Below, one piece after another: positions 6,049-13,439 of a stretch of DNA of 13,439 bases; position 1 is the stretch's first letter, and each line of letters starts with the position of its first letter. Origin of the DNA: Akkermansia sp. (GTDB taxonomy: Bacteria > Verrucomicrobiota > Verrucomicrobiia > Verrucomicrobiales > Akkermansiaceae). A program made the position numbers and the translations under genes. Location: the NCBI GenBank assembly GCA_017379255.1, contig JAFNWZ010000289.1:1-13439 (forward strand), written 5' to 3'. The notes beneath the pieces were generated by a model. It saw nothing but the letters and a program-made list of their open reading frames with translations, did no database searches and was not told the origin of the DNA.

Positions 6049-6606
6049 ATGGAATGGAATGACCACTTCATGGCGCTTTTCAGGGAGGCCGTAGAACGAT
6101 ACCAGCTCAATCCCCAGACCCCTGCAGACCGTTTCTTTCTGCCGGAAGAGCAGGAATTTCTCAAAACCATAGGGTATCAGCCGGCTGAAATGCACGGTTA
6201 TGTGCGCGAATATGCCGAAAAAGGAGCCCCCAGCCCCAGCACCACGCTGCTCATTGCCTCCGTACGCCGCCATTATTTTCTGAATGCTATGCGCGGCATG
6301 TCTGGCAATGCCCGCCCCATCACCGCAGCAGACCTGCCGGCAGAAACAGAAGAATTCCAGGAAATCCCCTACCTGCCCCGCATCATCCGCAAAGCCGAGG
6401 CCAAACTATTCGGCACACTGGCGCCCGATATCATGTATGGCGATGAAAAAGACCGCGAGTTCCTCCGCACACACGGCAATTTTCACCTGGCGGATTTCCT
6501 GCAACTGGCCGCAGCCGCGCGCAGTGACCGCCAGCGTCTCGTAAGCGCCGTGCTCAACGCCATGCGCAGCAACGCGGATTCGCCCGGCCCGGCGCAGGCT
6601 AACTAA
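6049..6606 (+). CDS. Hypothetical protein, DUF5069-like C-terminal half
   Basis: A 185-residue soluble protein without signal peptide or membrane segment. The N-terminal half is helical (LPEEQEFLKTIGYQPAEMHG, 31-50; LLIASVRRHYFL, 67-78). The C-terminal half contains YLPRIIRKAEAKL (108-120), a MYGDEKDREFLRTHG stretch and a final helix. It reminds me of DUF5069 proteins ('LPR...KA.A.L.G...Y......D..FL'), a family common in Verrucomicrobiota and Planctomycetota. That resemblance is recalled from memory and needs a profile search. It is the first gene after the best promoter of the window. The next gene starts 20 bases after its stop, so it probably leads the efflux operon, though nothing links it functionally to efflux. 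Confidence 0.7.
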   Translation: MEWNDHFMALFREAVERYQLNPQTPADRFFLPEEQEFLKTIGYQPAEMHGYVREYAEKGAPSPSTTLLIASVRRHYFLNAMRGMSGNARPITAADLPAETEEFQEIPYLPRIIRKAEAKLFGTLAPDIMYGDEKDREFLRTHGNFHLADFLQLAAAARSDRQRLVSAVLNAMRSNADSPGPAQAN

Positions 6607-6626: not shown

Positions 6627-7040
6627 ATGGACAAGCAGAATCAGATAGTGAGCACTGAAGCCCAGCGCCTGGCACTGGAGACCATGTCTGCCCAGCTGGT
6701 GCATAAGCTCAATGCCATGATTGCGGAACAAGAAGCACGAACCAGGGACTTTGCCGAGCAGCATCACACCCATATCGCACTGCCGCAGACCGCGGAGCCG
6801 ATTACCATTGTCCCCCCGGCGCCGTTGCCAAAACCGCCCCCGGCACCGCGCCCGCCCAGCCCCCGGCAGGAATACACCAGGCGCACCAAGGAGGAGCCCG
6901 CATTCAAACCAGAAGAGAAGCCGCTGCGAATCGGCCCGAAAAAACAAACTGCCAAGCCGGAGGAAGAAAACAACATCGGCCTGGGCATGGTCATTTTCTC
7001 CCTCATCGGCATCGTGATTCTCCTCCGTTCCTGCTCATAA
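6627..7040 (+). CDS. Proline-rich tail-anchored membrane protein
   Basis: A 137-residue protein of unknown family with three visible parts. Residues 1-45 are helical and heptad-like (ALETMSAQLVHKLNAMIAEQ). Residues about 57-112 are a Pro/Lys/Glu-rich linker (PPAPLPKPPPAPRPPSP). Residues about 117-133 are one transmembrane segment (IGLGMVIFSLIGIVILL), followed only by RSCS. With no signal peptide and a C-terminal membrane span, it should be tail-anchored with most of the chain in the cytoplasm. It sits 20 bases after the previous gene and 26 bases before the adaptor gene, inside the presumed operon. No ribosome binding site is visible. Confidence 0.72.
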   Translation: MDKQNQIVSTEAQRLALETMSAQLVHKLNAMIAEQEARTRDFAEQHHTHIALPQTAEPITIVPPAPLPKPPPAPRPPSPRQEYTRRTKEEPAFKPEEKPLRIGPKKQTAKPEEENNIGLGMVIFSLIGIVILLRSCS

Positions 7041-7066: not shown

Positions 7067-10033
7067 ATGACCCGCAACACCATACTGGCTCTGGCGCTCG
7101 GTGGCTGCACACTCGGCCTGCTGCCCTCCTGCAAACCTGGAGAAAACAGCACCAGCACCGCACCGCAGTCCATCCCCGCCATCAAGGTTTTCCATCTGCT
7201 CCACCAGGAGGTAACCGACTACGGCGAGTGGTTCGGCTACCTGCGCGGCGTGCAGGACACCAACATCCACCCGCATATCTCCGGATTCCTGCTTTCCCAG
7301 GAATACAAGGAAGGCACAAGAGTAAAAGCCGGGGATGTACTCTTCCGCATCGACCCCAAGCTCTTTGAAGCCGAACTTGCGCGCAGCAGGGCTAACCTGC
7401 AGGCCGCCCAGGCCACCCTGCTTTCGGCAGAGGCCACCGCCCGGAAAGCAGAACTGGACGTCAAGCGCTACACCCAGTTGGTGCAATCAGGTTCTGTTTC
7501 CGAAAAAGACCTGACGGATGCCCAGCAGACCCTGAAAGCAGCCCAGGCCCAGGTTGAGGCGGCCAAGGCCCAGATTGGCCAGCAGGAAGCCGCAGTCAGC
7601 AAAGCAGAAATCAACCTCAACTACAGCGTTATCCGCGCCCCGTACGATGGCATCATCGGCACAGCTAATGTTTCCATCGGCGATTTAGTCAGCCCCTCCA
7701 CCAACCTGGCCAACATCACCTCCATTGATCCCATCCGGGTTGATTTCTCCGTAAATGGAGACCACCTGCTGAACATCTTCAGCAAATATGGCAGCATCGG
7801 CACCAATAGTGCAGATGCCCCGCCCGCGCCGGAATTCCGGCTGCGCATGGAAGACGGGCAGGAACTCCCGCACCATGGCACACTCGTAGCCATGGACAGC
7901 GTACTCACCCCCTCCGGGCTGGTGAATGTGCAAGGCATTATCCCGAACCCCGACAACGTGCTGCGCGGTGGCATGCCGGTGCGCGTCAGGATTCCCCTTT
8001 CTACCGGCAAAGCCATGCTTGTTCCCAGGGCAGCCATCCGTAATGTGCTGCTCAACAACTTCATCCTGGTGGTGGATAAGGAAAGCGTGCCGCACATGGT
8101 ACCGGTGCATCTGGGCGGGGAATACAGCATCCGTGTAGAGGAGGACAACGGCTACCACTCCATCCAGACCATGGTAGCAGTCAAGGATTACGGCTCTATT
8201 TCACTGGTAGAAAAACTGAAGGAACTGGGCTATGAAAATCCGGCAGATGCCCCGGTGGTGACCGATGCTGAGAATGGCATTCTCGCGGTCAATATTTCCT
8301 CCACCAACAGCCGCCTGCCCAAGGGCGAGAAACCCGCCACCATCAAGACCACAGCATTCACGTTCAAGCCCGCGCCTAACCCCGCACTGGCAGCTGCCGC
8401 CCAGGAGACAGAGGGCGAAGCCGCCCCCGCCAACCCCGATGCCAAGCCCACCCTGCCGCCTTTCCCCGTGAAAATCAGCAACATGCTGCAGCAGGATGTA
8501 TCGGAAACCAGCTCATGGTTCGGCTCGCTGCGCGGTGTGGATGAAACTGACATACGCCCGCAGGTGAGCGGTTTCCTTCTCCAGCAGCATTTCAAGGATG
8601 GCTCCATGGTCAAAAAAGGTGATTTGCTCTTCACCATTGACCCCGCGCCCTACCAGGCCACGCTGGATGAAGCGCGTGCCAATCTGGCCGCAGCCCAGGC
8701 TGCCCGTGAGCAGGCAGACGCACAGCTTACCATGAGCCGCCAGACGCTGGACCGCTACCTCAAGCTGCGCGAGCAGACCCCTGGCGCCGTATCTGACAAA
8801 GTGGTGACAGACAGCGAAACACTGGTCACCACGAACGAAGCCGCCCTGCGCAAAGCGGATGCCTCAATTGCCCAGATGCAGGCTGCCGTGCTGCAGGCAG
8901 AAATCAACCTGAGCTACACCACCATCGAAGCCCCCTTCGATGGTCGCATCGGCATTCACAAACCCTCTATCGGTGCGCTCGTTAGTCCGTCTGATCCGGA
9001 ACCACTTGTCACGCTTTCCTCAGTCAACCCCATGCGTGTGGATTTCGGCATGAGCGGCCGCGGCGCCATGCAGGGATTCACGAATCACCGGGTGCGCAAG
9101 GCCAACCCCGATAAAGCCCGCAAGCAGGAGTTCGATATCATCCTCGACAACAATACCCTCTATGCCAAGAAGGGTTACATTGTCACCGCCAACAACACAC
9201 TGAGCACCAGCACTGGCACGCTGGATGTGGTTGGACATGTAGAAAACGACCACGCCATGCTGCGCAGCGGCATGGCGGTGACCGTACGCGCCCAGCGGGA
9301 CCCCATCCCCAATGCCTGCCTCGTGCCTGCACGCGCCCCGCTCAACGCCAACGGAATGGATCTGATTGTCATTCTCAAGCCGGATAACACCCCGCAGATG
9401 CTGCCTATCACCAAGGGGCCCATCATCAACCTGAAACGGGACAACGGCGCCGGGGTGGAATATGTGCAGCCCTTGCAGGTCATAGAGCCCGACCGCACTG
9501 TCATCACCGGCACGCTGCTGGCCAAGACCCAGGCACCGAATCTGGAATCCATCATTCTGGGTGGTGCCAAGGTCAAAACCTGGGGCGAGCTCGTTCTCAA
9601 ACAGGCCGGGGTCTCCAGTTTCCGGGAGTTGCTGGAAAAGCAGGCCGGCCATAGCCTGCCGGAATCCGACCTGCAGGCAGCAGGCGTGAGCGACTGGGGC
9701 GAGCTGCTGCTGCGCAAGAAAGCAGCCCCCGATTTCCGCGAACTCGTGCTGCGAGAAGCCGGCGCCAAGGATGAGCTCGACCTCATTGCCCTGGGTGAAG
9801 GCTGCAAATCGCTCATGGAGATGGTACTCAGGAAAATGGGCTTCGCCCAGGTGTCCGATGTACCCGTCATTGTGGAAGGCTCAATCATGGCGGCCCAGGC
9901 CTATGCAGCCAACGAAGCGGCTAAAGCCCCGGTCAACAAGCTCACCCCGCAGCCTTTCATCTATGTACCGACCAAGACGGTAACTCCCTCTGTCACCGCG
10001 GAACCGGTCAAGGAAGTTTCTCAGTACGAATAA
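7067..10033 (+). CDS. Tandem double RND periplasmic adaptor lipoprotein
   Basis: A 988-residue membrane-fusion (adaptor) protein linking an inner-membrane RND pump to an outer-membrane channel. The signal peptide ends LLPSC, with Cys22 as the lipid anchor. Copy 1, about residues 37-352: lipoyl half-motif (SGFLLSQEYKEGTRVKAGD), coiled-coil hairpin (about 97-185), second lipoyl half (RAPYDGIIGTANVSIGDLVSP) and beta-barrel. After a 379-389 element and an Ala/Pro linker (about 434-466), copy 2 (about 466-820) repeats the whole architecture with an offset of 429 residues. I count 37 of 62 identities between residues 55-116 and 484-545 without gaps. The usual adaptor is 350-420 residues, so this is a genuine doubling; no stop or frameshift separates the halves. 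Copy 2 continues into a 13-residue repeat array (824-926) and a Thr/Pro/Val tail. The pump gene starts 30 bases downstream. Confidence 0.92.
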   Translation: MTRNTILALALGGCTLGLLPSCKPGENSTSTAPQSIPAIKVFHLLHQEVTDYGEWFGYLRGVQDTNIHPHISGFLLSQEYKEGTRVKAGDVLFRIDPKLFEAELARSRANLQAAQATLLSAEATARKAELDVKRYTQLVQSGSVSEKDLTDAQQTLKAAQAQVEAAKAQIGQQEAAVSKAEINLNYSVIRAPYDGIIGTANVSIGDLVSPSTNLANITSIDPIRVDFSVNGDHLLNIFSKYGSIGTNSADAPPAPEFRLRMEDGQELPHHGTLVAMDSVLTPSGLVNVQGIIPNPDNVLRGGMPVRVRIPLSTGKAMLVPRAAIRNVLLNNFILVVDKESVPHMVPVHLGGEYSIRVEEDNGYHSIQTMVAVKDYGSISLVEKLKELGYENPADAPVVTDAENGILAVNISSTNSRLPKGEKPATIKTTAFTFKPAPNPALAAAAQETEGEAAPANPDAKPTLPPFPVKISNMLQQDVSETSSWFGSLRGVDETDIRPQVSGFLLQQHFKDGSMVKKGDLLFTIDPAPYQATLDEARANLAAAQAAREQADAQLTMSRQTLDRYLKLREQTPGAVSDKVVTDSETLVTTNEAALRKADASIAQMQAAVLQAEINLSYTTIEAPFDGRIGIHKPSIGALVSPSDPEPLVTLSSVNPMRVDFGMSGRGAMQGFTNHRVRKANPDKARKQEFDIILDNNTLYAKKGYIVTANNTLSTSTGTLDVVGHVENDHAMLRSGMAVTVRAQRDPIPNACLVPARAPLNANGMDLIVILKPDNTPQMLPITKGPIINLKRDNGAGVEYVQPLQVIEPDRTVITGTLLAKTQAPNLESIILGGAKVKTWGELVLKQAGVSSFRELLEKQAGHSLPESDLQAAGVSDWGELLLRKKAAPDFRELVLREAGAKDELDLIALGEGCKSLMEMVLRKMGFAQVSDVPVIVEGSIMAAQAYAANEAAKAPVNKLTPQPFIYVPTKTVTPSVTAEPVKEVSQYE
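9536..9844 (+). repeat. Array of eight ~13-residue repeats in the adaptor
   Basis: Residues 824-926 of the adaptor divide into eight successive units. Examples are KTWGELVLKQAGV, SDWGELLLRKKAA, PDFRELVLREAGA and KSLMEMVLRKMGF. Six are exactly 13 residues; two adjacent ones are 14 and 11. The pattern is an aromatic or Leu at position 3, Glu at 5, Leu/Val/Ile at 6-8, Lys/Arg at 9 and Ala-Gly at 11-12. Each unit looks like one short amphipathic helix closed by a Gly turn. The units are too diverged in DNA for recent slippage. I know of no such array in RND adaptors. Confidence 0.8.
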
Positions 10034-10063: not shown

Positions 10064-13000
10064 ATGTCTCCGTTTTTCATTAAGCATCCCATCATTGCCG
10101 GCGTTATCGCTGTGGTAACCACCCTGCTGGGTCTCATCAGTATGGTGGCACTGCCCATCGCCCAGTACCCGGACATCGCGCCCGTGACCATCGCCATGAG
10201 CGCGGCCTACCCCGGTGCCAATGCCACCGAAGTAGCAGAATCCGTAGCAACCCCCATCGAGCTGCAGCTTTCCGGCGTGGAGAAAATGGACTACATGAAC
10301 TCCACTTCCTCCAACAACGGTGCATGCAGCATCAATGTTGTCTTTGAACCGGGCTCCAACCCCAACACAGACCAGCAGAACACCTACATGCGCTACAGCC
10401 AGGCCACCAGCCAGCTGCCCAGCATGGTATCCCAGATGGGTATCACCATCAAGCAGAGTGGTGCCCTGCCCCTCATGCTCTATGCGCTGGACTCCCCTGA
10501 GGGTTTCTTTGAGCCGGTAAGTCTCACAGGTTACGCGTTCCTCAACCTGGTGGACCCGCTCAAACGCGTGGAAGGCGTGGGCGACGTGCAGGTATTCGGC
10601 GCCCGCTTTGCCATCCGCATCTGGCTGGATACGGATAAAATGGCCCAGAAAGGTATCTCCGTGCAGGAGGTGTACAACGCCGTCAGCACCCAGAATGCCA
10701 TTAACCCCGGCGGTGCCGTGGGCGCAGAACCCATGCCCGACGGGCAGGAATTCACCTACACCATCCGCAACCAGGGCCGCATGACCACGGTGGATGAGTT
10801 CAACTCCATCATCGTGCGCCAGAAGGGAACTCAGGCCGTTTACCTGCGTGACATTGCCCAGATTGAGCTTGGCTCCCAGAGCTACTCCATGGCCAGCCGC
10901 ATCAACGGCCGCCCCGGTACAGTTCTTGCCGTTTATCAGGCAGCCGGCTCCAACGCCATTGAAACCGTGGACAGGGTCAAGGCCATGCTGGACGAAAAGG
11001 CCCGGGTCATGCCGGAAGGCATGCGTGGCTTTGTGGCTCTGGACACCACCACCACCGTGCGCGACTCCATTTCTGAAATTGCGCACACGCTGTTAGAGGC
11101 TATGGTGCTGGTAGCGCTGGTGGTGTTCGTATTCCTGCAGGGTTGGCGCGCCACGCTCATTCCGCTCATCGCCGTGCCGGTGTCGCTGGTGACCACCTTC
11201 ATCTTCTTCCCCATGCTGGGCTTCACCCTCAACACCATCTGTCTGCTCGGCATGGTGCTGGCCATCGGCCTAGTGGTGGACGACGCCATCGTGGTGGTGG
11301 AAGCCGTGGAAGCGCACATGGAAAACGGCATGACCCCGCGCCAGGCCACCTTCGCCGCCATGAAGGAAGTAAGCGGCCCGGTGGTCGCCATTGCCTTGGT
11401 GCTGGCAGCCGTATTCCTGCCCACCGCGCTGCTGCCGGGTATCACGGGCACGCTGTTCCAGCAATTTGCCGTGACCATTGCCGTCTCCATGCTCATATCA
11501 GCCTTCAACGCACTCACCCTTTCCCCTGCGTTGTCGGCACTCATGCTGCAGCCCAAAAAAGAGCATCGCTCCCTGCTTACCCCGCTCTACAACCTCTTCA
11601 ACCGCTGCTATGATGCCGTGGCAGATAAATTCTCAGATGCCTGCCACTGGCTCTGCAAGCATCTCACCATCTCCATGGCGATGCTGGCCGGCATCACCGC
11701 CTGTGTCATCCCCGTCTCCCAACGCGTGCCCGGCGGATTCCTGCCCGCAGAAGACCAGGGCTTCCTCATCGGCGGCGTCATCATGAAACCCGGCGTTTCC
11801 CTGCAGCGCCTCACCGAGCAGGTCAAACCCATTGAGCAGGTGCTGCTCTCTGAACCCACCACTGACTTTGCCGTAGCCATCATCGGCATGAACCTGGTGA
11901 TTGGTGTGCAGACCACAAACGCGCTGTCGTTCTTCGCCTGTCTCAAGCCCTATGCGGATCGCCCGGTCATGGAGAATGGAGAGATTCCCACTGCAGATGA
12001 TGTGCAGAAACGCGTGCAGGCCAGACTGGCCATGTGCGGTGTGGACGGCGTAAGCTTCCTGGTCAGCCCGCCCGCCATTCCCGGCGTGGGCGTGGGTAAT
12101 GATATTTCCTTTGCACTGGAAGACCTGGACGGCCAGGGCGTAGGCCCGCTGTATGAACAGGCCCAGAAACTGGAAAAAGCACTCATGGCCCACCCGGCCA
12201 TCGCCAAGGCCTCCGACATGATGCTGCCCCAGGTGCCCCAGAAGAGCATCTCCATCGACAAGGAAAAATGCCTGGCACAAGGGGTGGATTACTCTGCGGC
12301 CAACCAGCTGCTGCAATGCTTCAACGGCTCCAGCTTCGTGAACTACTTCACCCAGTTCGGCCAGCAGTGGCAGGTGTATATGCAGGCAGCCGGTGTGAGC
12401 CGCGCCAACACGGAGCAGATTGCCAACTTCTACGTCAGCAACGCCAAGGGTGATTCCGTACCCCTGAGCACCCTGGTAACCATCAAGGACATCGCCGACA
12501 CCGAATTCGTGTGGCGTAACAACAACTACAACGCCGCCAAGATTTCCGTATCCCCGGCAGAAGGGTATTCCACCGCCCAGACCATGGCCGCTGTGGAGGA
12601 AGTATTCGCCAAGGTGATGGATACCACCAAGTTCGCCATGGAATATGTGGACATGAGTTACCAGGAAAAGAAAGTGCAGGATGGCCTTGGTCTCGGTGCC
12701 ATCTTTGGTCTTTCAGCCGTGTTCGCCTTCCTCATCATGGCGGCATTGTATGAGAAATGGACCCTGCCCATTGCCATTTTCATGACTGTCCCCATCGCGG
12801 TGCTGGGCGCATTCCTGGGTCTGCTCTGGACCGGGCTCGACCTCAACATGTATGCCCAGATCGGCCTGGTGATGCTGGTGGGTCTGGCCGCCAAGAACGC
12901 CATTCTCATTGTGGAATTCGCCGTGCTGCAGATGGAGCGCGGCCAGGAACTCATCGAAGCCGCGGTTACGGCAGCCCGCATGCGTCTGCGCCCGATTCTC

Positions 13001-13264
13001 ATGACCTCCTTCGCCTTCATTCTGGGCTGTGTACCACTGGTCACGGCTGAGGGGGCCGGTGCACTCGCCCGCAACTCCATCGGTGTGGTGGTAGTCATCG
13101 GCATGAGCATCGCCACGGCACTGGGTGTATTCTTCATCCCCTGCTCCTTCGTTTTCATCATGAAGCTGTTCCGCTCCAGAATCACAGCCGGGCACCACGG
13201 CGAAGACCCGGATGAAGTAGCGGCCTACGCCATGCTCGAAGCCCAGGAAAAAGAATCCACCTGA
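10064..13264 (+). CDS. RND multidrug efflux pump, HAE1 family
   Basis: A 1066-residue AcrB/MexB-type proton-driven drug exporter of the inner membrane. The N terminus FFIKHPIIAGVIAVV is the classic first transmembrane helix, and twelve membrane spans with two large periplasmic loops can be followed. The proton relay is complete: Asp406-Asp407 in GLVVDDAIVVVE (TM4), Lys944 in GLAAKNAILIVEF (TM10), and the RLRPILMTSFAF segment with Arg974 and Thr981 (TM11). This argues for a working multidrug-type pump rather than a metal exporter. No outer-membrane channel gene is present, so it must be supplied from elsewhere. It follows the double adaptor by 30 bases with no ribosome binding site and ends just before a strong terminator. 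Actual substrates cannot be inferred. Confidence 0.95.
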   Translation: MSPFFIKHPIIAGVIAVVTTLLGLISMVALPIAQYPDIAPVTIAMSAAYPGANATEVAESVATPIELQLSGVEKMDYMNSTSSNNGACSINVVFEPGSNPNTDQQNTYMRYSQATSQLPSMVSQMGITIKQSGALPLMLYALDSPEGFFEPVSLTGYAFLNLVDPLKRVEGVGDVQVFGARFAIRIWLDTDKMAQKGISVQEVYNAVSTQNAINPGGAVGAEPMPDGQEFTYTIRNQGRMTTVDEFNSIIVRQKGTQAVYLRDIAQIELGSQSYSMASRINGRPGTVLAVYQAAGSNAIETVDRVKAMLDEKARVMPEGMRGFVALDTTTTVRDSISEIAHTLLEAMVLVALVVFVFLQGWRATLIPLIAVPVSLVTTFIFFPMLGFTLNTICLLGMVLAIGLVVDDAIVVVEAVEAHMENGMTPRQATFAAMKEVSGPVVAIALVLAAVFLPTALLPGITGTLFQQFAVTIAVSMLISAFNALTLSPALSALMLQPKKEHRSLLTPLYNLFNRCYDAVADKFSDACHWLCKHLTISMAMLAGITACVIPVSQRVPGGFLPAEDQGFLIGGVIMKPGVSLQRLTEQVKPIEQVLLSEPTTDFAVAIIGMNLVIGVQTTNALSFFACLKPYADRPVMENGEIPTADDVQKRVQARLAMCGVDGVSFLVSPPAIPGVGVGNDISFALEDLDGQGVGPLYEQAQKLEKALMAHPAIAKASDMMLPQVPQKSISIDKEKCLAQGVDYSAANQLLQCFNGSSFVNYFTQFGQQWQVYMQAAGVSRANTEQIANFYVSNAKGDSVPLSTLVTIKDIADTEFVWRNNNYNAAKISVSPAEGYSTAQTMAAVEEVFAKVMDTTKFAMEYVDMSYQEKKVQDGLGLGAIFGLSAVFAFLIMAALYEKWTLPIAIFMTVPIAVLGAFLGLLWTGLDLNMYAQIGLVMLVGLAAKNAILIVEFAVLQMERGQELIEAAVTAARMRLRPILMTSFAFILGCVPLVTAEGAGALARNSIGVVVVIGMSIATALGVFFIPCSFVFIMKLFRSRITAGHHGEDPDEVAAYAMLEAQEKEST

Positions 13265-13281
13265 CCAATCAAATGATTTCC

Positions 13282-13320
13282 AATTACCGGTCATAAGCAT
13301 CTCTTATGACCGGTAATTTT
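13282..13320 (+). terminator. Strong intrinsic terminator after the RND pump
   Basis: A perfect 16-bp stem, 13282-13297 with 13303-13318 (AATTACCGGTCATAAG and its complement), encloses a 5-base loop (CATCT) and runs into T's at 13317-13320. It begins 17 bases after the pump stop codon. Because the stem starts with AATT it could also work in the opposite direction. It marks the end of the efflux operon. Confidence 0.85.
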
Positions 13321-13346
13321 CACTTCATCTCTTACTACTTACATAT

Positions 13347-13439
13347 ATGGTCAATTCATCTCCATCTCGTTTCACAGCTAAAACAACAGCTGCCGTCGTC
13401 CTTTTCATCATCCTGGCCGTGCTCAGCATCAGCAATCAC
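13347..13439 (+). CDS. Start of an unidentified gene (partial)
   Basis: An ATG at 13347 opens a frame that is still open at the right edge (31 residues). It encodes MVNSSPSRFTAKTTAA followed by a hydrophobic segment VVLFIILAVLSI, which looks like an N-terminal signal anchor or uncleaved signal peptide. It lies after the terminator, so it should have its own promoter; TTTTCA (13317-13322) and TACATA (13340-13345) are spaced 17 bases apart, but would start transcription just inside the frame. The product cannot be identified from this fragment. Confidence 0.5.
   Translation, partial: MVNSSPSRFTAKTTAAVVLFIILAVLSISNH

Follow-up and report, generated by a model that had tools for sequence, protein, structure and literature searches.

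We analyzed a 13,439-nucleotide contig of Akkermansia sp. (GenBank assembly GCA_017379255.1, contig JAFNWZ010000289.1; hereafter the window) and found that it encodes a tandem (fused) periplasmic adaptor of the resistance-nodulation-division (RND) type, in which two adaptor copies lie in one chain of 988 amino acids (7067..10033; this and all other features given below are on the forward strand). The second copy carries an inserted array of short repeats, 104 residues long (residues 809-912; 9491..9802), which is predicted to form a small alpha-solenoid in a loop of the membrane-proximal domain, with capped helices of about nine residues, one per 13-residue unit. We consider it very likely that these residues are an insert, belong to this fold class and were gained once and later lost in one lineage, all three taken together. 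While the fused RND adaptor is the known part of this system, the new part is a short-period helical repeat domain without a described match found, so far in one genus.

Borders, repeat units and predicted fold

The assignment of the protein is based on several results. The TIGR01730 (RND_mfp) model matched it in two stretches (E 3.7e-106; 354.7 bits against a curated cut-off of 94.9). An AlphaFold model of the whole chain, built from a 50-row alignment (mean predicted local distance difference test score, pLDDT, 80.9; predicted template modelling score 0.62), matches AcrA, MexA, MacA and BesA, and the protein has the lipoyl, hairpin, beta-barrel and membrane-proximal domain fold of RND adaptors.

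The borders of the insert are defined by the gap between two collinear blocks in an hhalign comparison of profiles from copy 1 (residues 340-434) and copy 2 (770-968). Residues 340-374 align with 774-808 (E 7e-5) and residues 375-432 with 913-966 (E 4e-7), leaving residues 809-912 of copy 2 without a counterpart in copy 1. The helix that follows the gap (residues 913-925; 9803..9841), hereafter the resident helix, aligns with a helix of copy 1 (residues 376-388; 8192..8230). By sequence, a counterpart was also present at the same loop in every one of the 11 single adaptors read from this genus (e.g. ESLKEIGYDKPSDAPVIVEGG), which were picked from the adaptor search matches. On these alignments, the resident helix is native to the adaptor fold and lies outside the insert.

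The insert consists of six clear units, one degenerate unit and a capping helix. The capping helix opens it (residues 810-821; 9494..9529) and was predicted both in the full-length chain and in the array modelled alone. Unit 1 (residues 823-835; 9533..9571; predicted helix 826-833) scored 12.0 with a matrix built for the units, unit 2 (836-848; 9572..9610), with the invariant W839, scored 30.1, and unit 3 (849-861; 9611..9649; helix 852-860) scored 27.6. Unit 4 (862-873; 9650..9685) is the degenerate one: it has 12 residues, was missed by the matrix, contains a short predicted helix (867-871) and shares an identity of only 0.10-0.15 with the other units. Unit 5 (874-886; 9686..9724; score 20.9), with the invariant W877, is closest to unit 2 (identity 0.42), and unit 6 (887-899; 9725..9763; score 26.7) has an identity of 0.37 to unit 3. 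Unit 7 (900-912; 9764..9802; score 16.8) contains the invariant D902 and A908. The matrix recognized seven units in the window protein, the resident helix being counted among them, and its maximum over 14,560 control positions was 6.9.

An earlier note on this DNA, made from the sequence alone, had described eight repeats of a strict period of about 13 residues at 9536-9844. The location holds, corresponding to residues 824-926 of the 988-residue frame, as does the helical nature of the units. The count and borders had to be redrawn: the insert spans residues 809-912, the capping helix precedes unit 1, and the last of the eight is the native helix 913-925. The period is not strict, as the 12 residues of unit 4 show. 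The statement that the array is no part of the normal adaptor fold accordingly stands for residues 809-912 and falls for residues 913-925, which have counterparts in copy 1 and the single adaptors.

The periodicity itself is highly significant. In the window protein alone, the signal reached z 7.3 at lag 13 and z 5.3 at lag 26, and the maximum across 2,000 shuffles, taken over all lags between 3 and 30, was 4.7. In a weighted family profile of 107 rows (the window protein and 106 relatives), z rose to 11.5 at lag 13, 8.0 at lag 26 and 8.5 at lag 38, against a shuffle maximum of 4.6. Thirty-three control windows over residues 40-788 gave no lag-13 value above 1.3, and those covering the hairpins showed a signal at lag 7 instead. 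That the array is ordinary helical sequence with a period arising by chance might be suggested by the degenerate unit and by the failure to find a repeat at the DNA level, but the lag-13 statistics of the family profile rule this out, and we regard it as next to impossible. The unit consensus is approximately (A/V)-x-(D/S)-(W/F)-x-E-L-(V/L)-L-K-x-A-G. By reading, position 3 would serve as helix N-cap, positions 4, 7 to 9 and 12 would be hydrophobic, E6 and K10 could form a salt bridge, and the glycine at position 13 would be the C-cap.

Structure prediction agrees with this arrangement. In the full-chain model, copy 2 runs from a strand (798-808) through nine helices (810-821, 826-833, 839-847, 852-860, 867-871, 877-884, 890-898, 903-910 and the resident 916-923) to a strand (933-937), a helix (939-951) and a strand (960-963), whereas copy 1 has a strand (364-375), one helix (380-386), a strand (396-398) and a helix (404-415). 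The elements after the array belong to the membrane-proximal domain of copy 2 (9863..9955), an assignment drawn from the model and from BesA; the alignment of the BesA chain 4kkt_D lies between residues 464 and 966 of the model, on both sides of the array. The placing of the array in the earlier note, near the end of copy 2 and between two strands, is supported, the site being inside this domain. Modelled alone, it forms short helices in series with pLDDT 91-95 over residues 811-910; inside the full-chain model, its pLDDT is 73-86.

No described domain was found to match the array. Solved structures, searched with the array by fold and by sequence, gave no match, and in a Pfam scan of 22 array sequences none (0/22) had any family reaching its cut-off, including the known alpha-solenoid families TPR, HEAT, ankyrin and Sel1. 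Two families came nearest, each in two of the 22 arrays. Phage_TAC_7, a phage tail assembly chaperone family, reached a best E of 6.3e-05 (23.4 bits against a cut-off of 25), and DUF4332 (PF14229), which is presumably helix-hairpin-helix-like, showed likeness over about 30 residues (best E 0.023; 15.3 bits against 23.2); membership is not supported. The earlier note, which knew of no domain with this period in adaptors, had named a non-significant period and a disordered or ordinary known domain as outcomes that would speak against it. Neither was seen: the period is significant, and the region is predicted to be ordered and matched no known domain.

Distribution, origin and history of the array

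The array is restricted to one genus, Akkermansia, within the samples searched. An array profile identified it in 22 of 195 genomes in a sample of the family, all of them in the genus of the window (1 of 16 genera) and amounting to 22 of the 41 own-genus members listed, as well as in 9 of 387 genomes in a sample of the phylum (1 of 197 genera). When 84,980 species genomes were scanned with two peptide patterns only, 25 array loci were obtained out of 107 pattern matches. These loci were titled Akkermansia (20, one being Candidatus Akkermansia intestinigallinarum), Akkermansiaceae bacterium (3), Verrucomicrobiales bacterium (1) and uncultured bacterium (1), and several of them are the same genomes as the own-genus ones, as indicated by identical phmmer scores. 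Many titles refer to gut samples of buffalo, sheep, goat or deer, or to "Lapin", which we read as rabbit. The whole fused adaptor, searched at E <=1e-60 with single adaptors included among the matches, was found in 31 of the 195 family-sample genomes and likewise in 1 of 16 genera.

Within these genomes, the array keeps to one place. In all 38 array-bearing rows read, it was in copy 2, and no second place was found in any genome of the family and phylum samples; the one genome with two rows contained adjoining pieces of the same gene. Among about 5.8 billion proteins searched with residues 760-988, 106 of 2333 candidates matched at E <=1e-3, the weakest at E 1.5e-37, and all 106 shared the same set of Pfam domains, including PF25973 and PF25944, which we take to be adaptor domains. 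A search of short proteins gave five matches at E <=1, of which three (P0107, P0108 and P0110) look like C-terminal pieces of this adaptor and two (P0109 and P0111) have the adaptor end behind unrelated sequence, probably representing assembly joins. Because the genome profile searches matched own-genus genomes only and the 106 protein matches share one set of domains, a domain common to other proteins was excluded within these searches.

The likeness of the units to the resident helix suggests where they came from. When non-array 13-mers of the protein were scored against the six clear units of the insert, the resident helix came out above all 789 others (z 5.0), and its copy-1 counterpart reached z 2.75, with 3 of the 789 scoring higher. 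An origin of the array in tandem duplication of the one helix already present in that loop is thus fairly well supported by sequence. As a caution against this origin, the likeness may in part reflect helix composition, since the 789 control segments mix helices, strands and loops. The array is probably old, because no DNA-level repeat was found within it. Units at the same position have identities of 0.46-0.69 between species and different units 0.10-0.42, the latter being nearly equal within and between species. A recent expansion in copy number was excluded by these identities, higher for the same position than for different units, and by the missing DNA repeat.

In a tree set of 42 rows, 38 with the array and four without, repeat number is not free to vary among relatives, a comparison that had been proposed, and the insert length proved mostly fixed: 104 residues in 28 of the 38, 105 in three, 100 in two, 81 in four and 69 in one. 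One tree was built from copy 2 without the array residues and rooted on the 11 single adaptors. In it, the fused adaptors form one clade (support 100/100). The 81-residue rows form a clade that branches first (100/99), and the remaining 38 rows are grouped weakly (89/69). The four array-less rows form one clade (100/100), which is nested among array-bearing rows and groups with five long ones (99/98), so that presence and absence require two changes on this tree. In the copy-1 tree, an array-bearing protein, P0106, is sister to the array-less rows (100/99), although P0106 and others are long-branched.

P0106 (1428 amino acids, on a 74-kb contig) has apparent extra lipoyl and hairpin segments in copy 2 as well (about residues 690-1115). 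The linker between the two copies is about 73-83 residues long in the array-less rows and P0106 (5/5) and 50-60 residues in the 34 other measurable rows. The long linker of these five (L040-L043 and P0106) is thus at least 13 residues longer and looks helical; P0106 has the array in addition. Because the array-less rows are nested, and because P0106 is sister to them and shares their long linker, a history of one gain and one loss fits these sequence data best. The array-less form as the ancestral state of the fused adaptor was excluded, since the four rows nest among array-bearing ones with P0106 as their sister.

We are less sure how the array reached its present length. A weaker case can be made that the long array derives from a shorter one via duplication of a three-helix block, as suggested by the short first branch, the tryptophan counts, the lag-38 signal and the likeness of units 2 and 5, the most similar pair. 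The 33 long inserts contain two tryptophans in 30 cases and three in the other three, whereas the five shorter inserts contain one in four cases and two in the remaining case. Two observations speak against such stepwise growth. The shorter insert with two tryptophans belongs to an 81-residue row (L044), and the 69-residue row (L079) is early only in the copy-2 tree, while two other trees place it deeper among the others; its insert may therefore represent a later shortening.

Conservation and possible role

Particular residues of the array are strongly conserved. All 107 rows keep W839, D902 and A908 unchanged, G912 is present in 106 of 107, and W877 in all 106 rows that have a residue there. 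The ratio of nonsynonymous to synonymous substitution rates (dN/dS) in eight close pairs was 0.02-0.20 for the array and 0.03-0.11 for the copy-2 core, and the low array values indicate purifying selection. The net charge of the insert ranges from -7 to +3 over 38 rows and is -3 in the window.

These observations lead us to a proposal in which the array acts as a docking arm. In AcrAB, according to the passages available from one account (PMC6975555), the membrane-proximal domain touches the porter domain and the funnel base of the pump, and two adaptors per pump protomer occupy semi-equivalent sites with limited overall contact. By analogy, the fused chain would supply the adaptors for both semi-equivalent sites of each protomer, and an array on copy 2 only would place three arrays on each pump trimer, all at one kind of site. 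Each array could make an extra contact with the porter or funnel surface of the pump or with a neighbouring adaptor, which would fix copy 2 to its site and stiffen the ring. We favour a protein-docking arm because the charge of the array, near neutral to acidic, is more in keeping with contact to a protein than to an anionic surface and speaks weakly against contact with the membrane or peptidoglycan. That the array docks to the pump or a neighbouring adaptor is tentative, somewhat short of an even chance. As a whole, the explanation that a solenoid of duplicated helices acts as a docking arm at one of the two semi-equivalent sites seems to us about as likely true as false. A bolder form, in which the array is an undescribed class of alpha-solenoid with one capped helix per 13 residues, amplified from a loop helix within one gene family and used as a site-specific clamp by which the adaptor positions become chemically different from each other, is possible but rather doubtful.

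Several points weigh against a docking role. The array is dispensable, given that one clade of four genomes lost it and kept the fused adaptor, with the pump adjoining the array-less adaptor in the two such loci read. In 6 of 8 pairs, the array has a higher dN/dS than the core of copy 2, and the conserved E6 and K10 are explicable by helix stability alone. The complete loss while the gene stayed open, together with the raised dN/dS, would be expected if the array were a tolerated ornament without a role, whose folded state is kept by selection against misfolding. Its presence in 38 of 42 rows, the ceiling of 0.20 on dN/dS in all eight pairs, its near-fixed length and the unit-specific invariant residues make this improbable. 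A length of 100-105 residues in 33 of the 38 array-bearing rows is what a spacer would show, and the array sits in the domain closest to the inner membrane; it might be a spacer or collar that takes up the gap beside the pump or rests on membrane or peptidoglycan and binds nothing specifically. We consider this distinctly unlikely, since the invariant W839, W877, D902 and A908 suggest more than length, and the charge disfavours binding to anionic lipid or peptidoglycan.

The array could alternatively dock another periplasmic partner or deliver substrate to the pump, as has been suggested for the accessory domains of some metal-pump adaptors. One source (PMC4446572) shows extra domains in CusB and SilB and proposes that the membrane-proximal domain helps to present cargo. 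An upstream open reading frame (ORF; 6627-7040) also adjoins the fused adaptor in four of five relative loci searched for its motif, but the two array-less loci read have it beside the adaptor as well. Across the 107 rows, residues 812-912 include no conserved Cys or His, and 18 of 38 inserts have neither, Met as a ligand not having been assessed; a metal site of the Cys/His type is thereby excluded, and with it the conserved residues expected of a metal-handling accessory domain like those of CusB and SilB. A partner or substrate role of this kind is, on balance, unlikely, and the docking arm remains our preferred explanation.

Neighbouring genes and known systems

The pump gene, of the AcrB type (PF00873, E 5e-279), lies directly 3' of the adaptor (10064..13264). 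No outer-membrane channel gene was evident beside the pump in five relative loci (L080-L084), viewed together with the window end 3' of the pump (13265-13439) by ORF listing and no family search. Immediately upstream of the fused adaptor gene lie two small ORFs (6627-7040 and 6049-6606), of which the first encodes 137 amino acids and, by reading of its sequence, ends in a likely transmembrane helix; its motif occurs in two loci with the array and two without it, and not in L081. Near the N-terminus of the adaptor, C22 is invariant in 50 of 50 rows and stands at the position of a candidate lipid anchor, judged by the lipobox rule. In one genome (L010), another fused adaptor is also encoded, which is shorter (open frame of 741 amino acids), array-less and, by sequence reading, beside an RND-type pump.

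In most pumps, the same protein fills both adaptor positions. Here two adaptors are joined in one chain, and neither the solved adaptors AcrA, MexA, MacA and BesA nor any other solved chain matched the array. Paired adaptors also occur in DSY0927 of Desulfitobacterium hafniense, a fused dimer, in TriABC, a pump with two adaptors, and in engineered AcrA fusions, where natural and engineered pairs fit and support a trimer of adaptor dimers, and the excerpts available from their descriptions mention no array or site-specific extra domain (PMC4446572, PMC13328181). A natural fused adaptor with an extra domain on the second copy alone would make the role of each adaptor position directly askable. 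Moreover, adaptors without the array (copy 1 and the single ones), with shorter and with long arrays, and a clade that has naturally lost it occur together in one genus, which offers a concise view of how a single helix may expand into a repeat domain. Alpha-solenoids such as TPR, PPR, ankyrin, HEAT and Sel1 are likewise built of short helices from tandem units, but PPR units have 31-36 residues and some TPRs 42, as given in part of one source (PMC11514114), whereas the present array has one helix per 13 residues. If the predicted fold holds, it would add one more short-period helical repeat to those already described.

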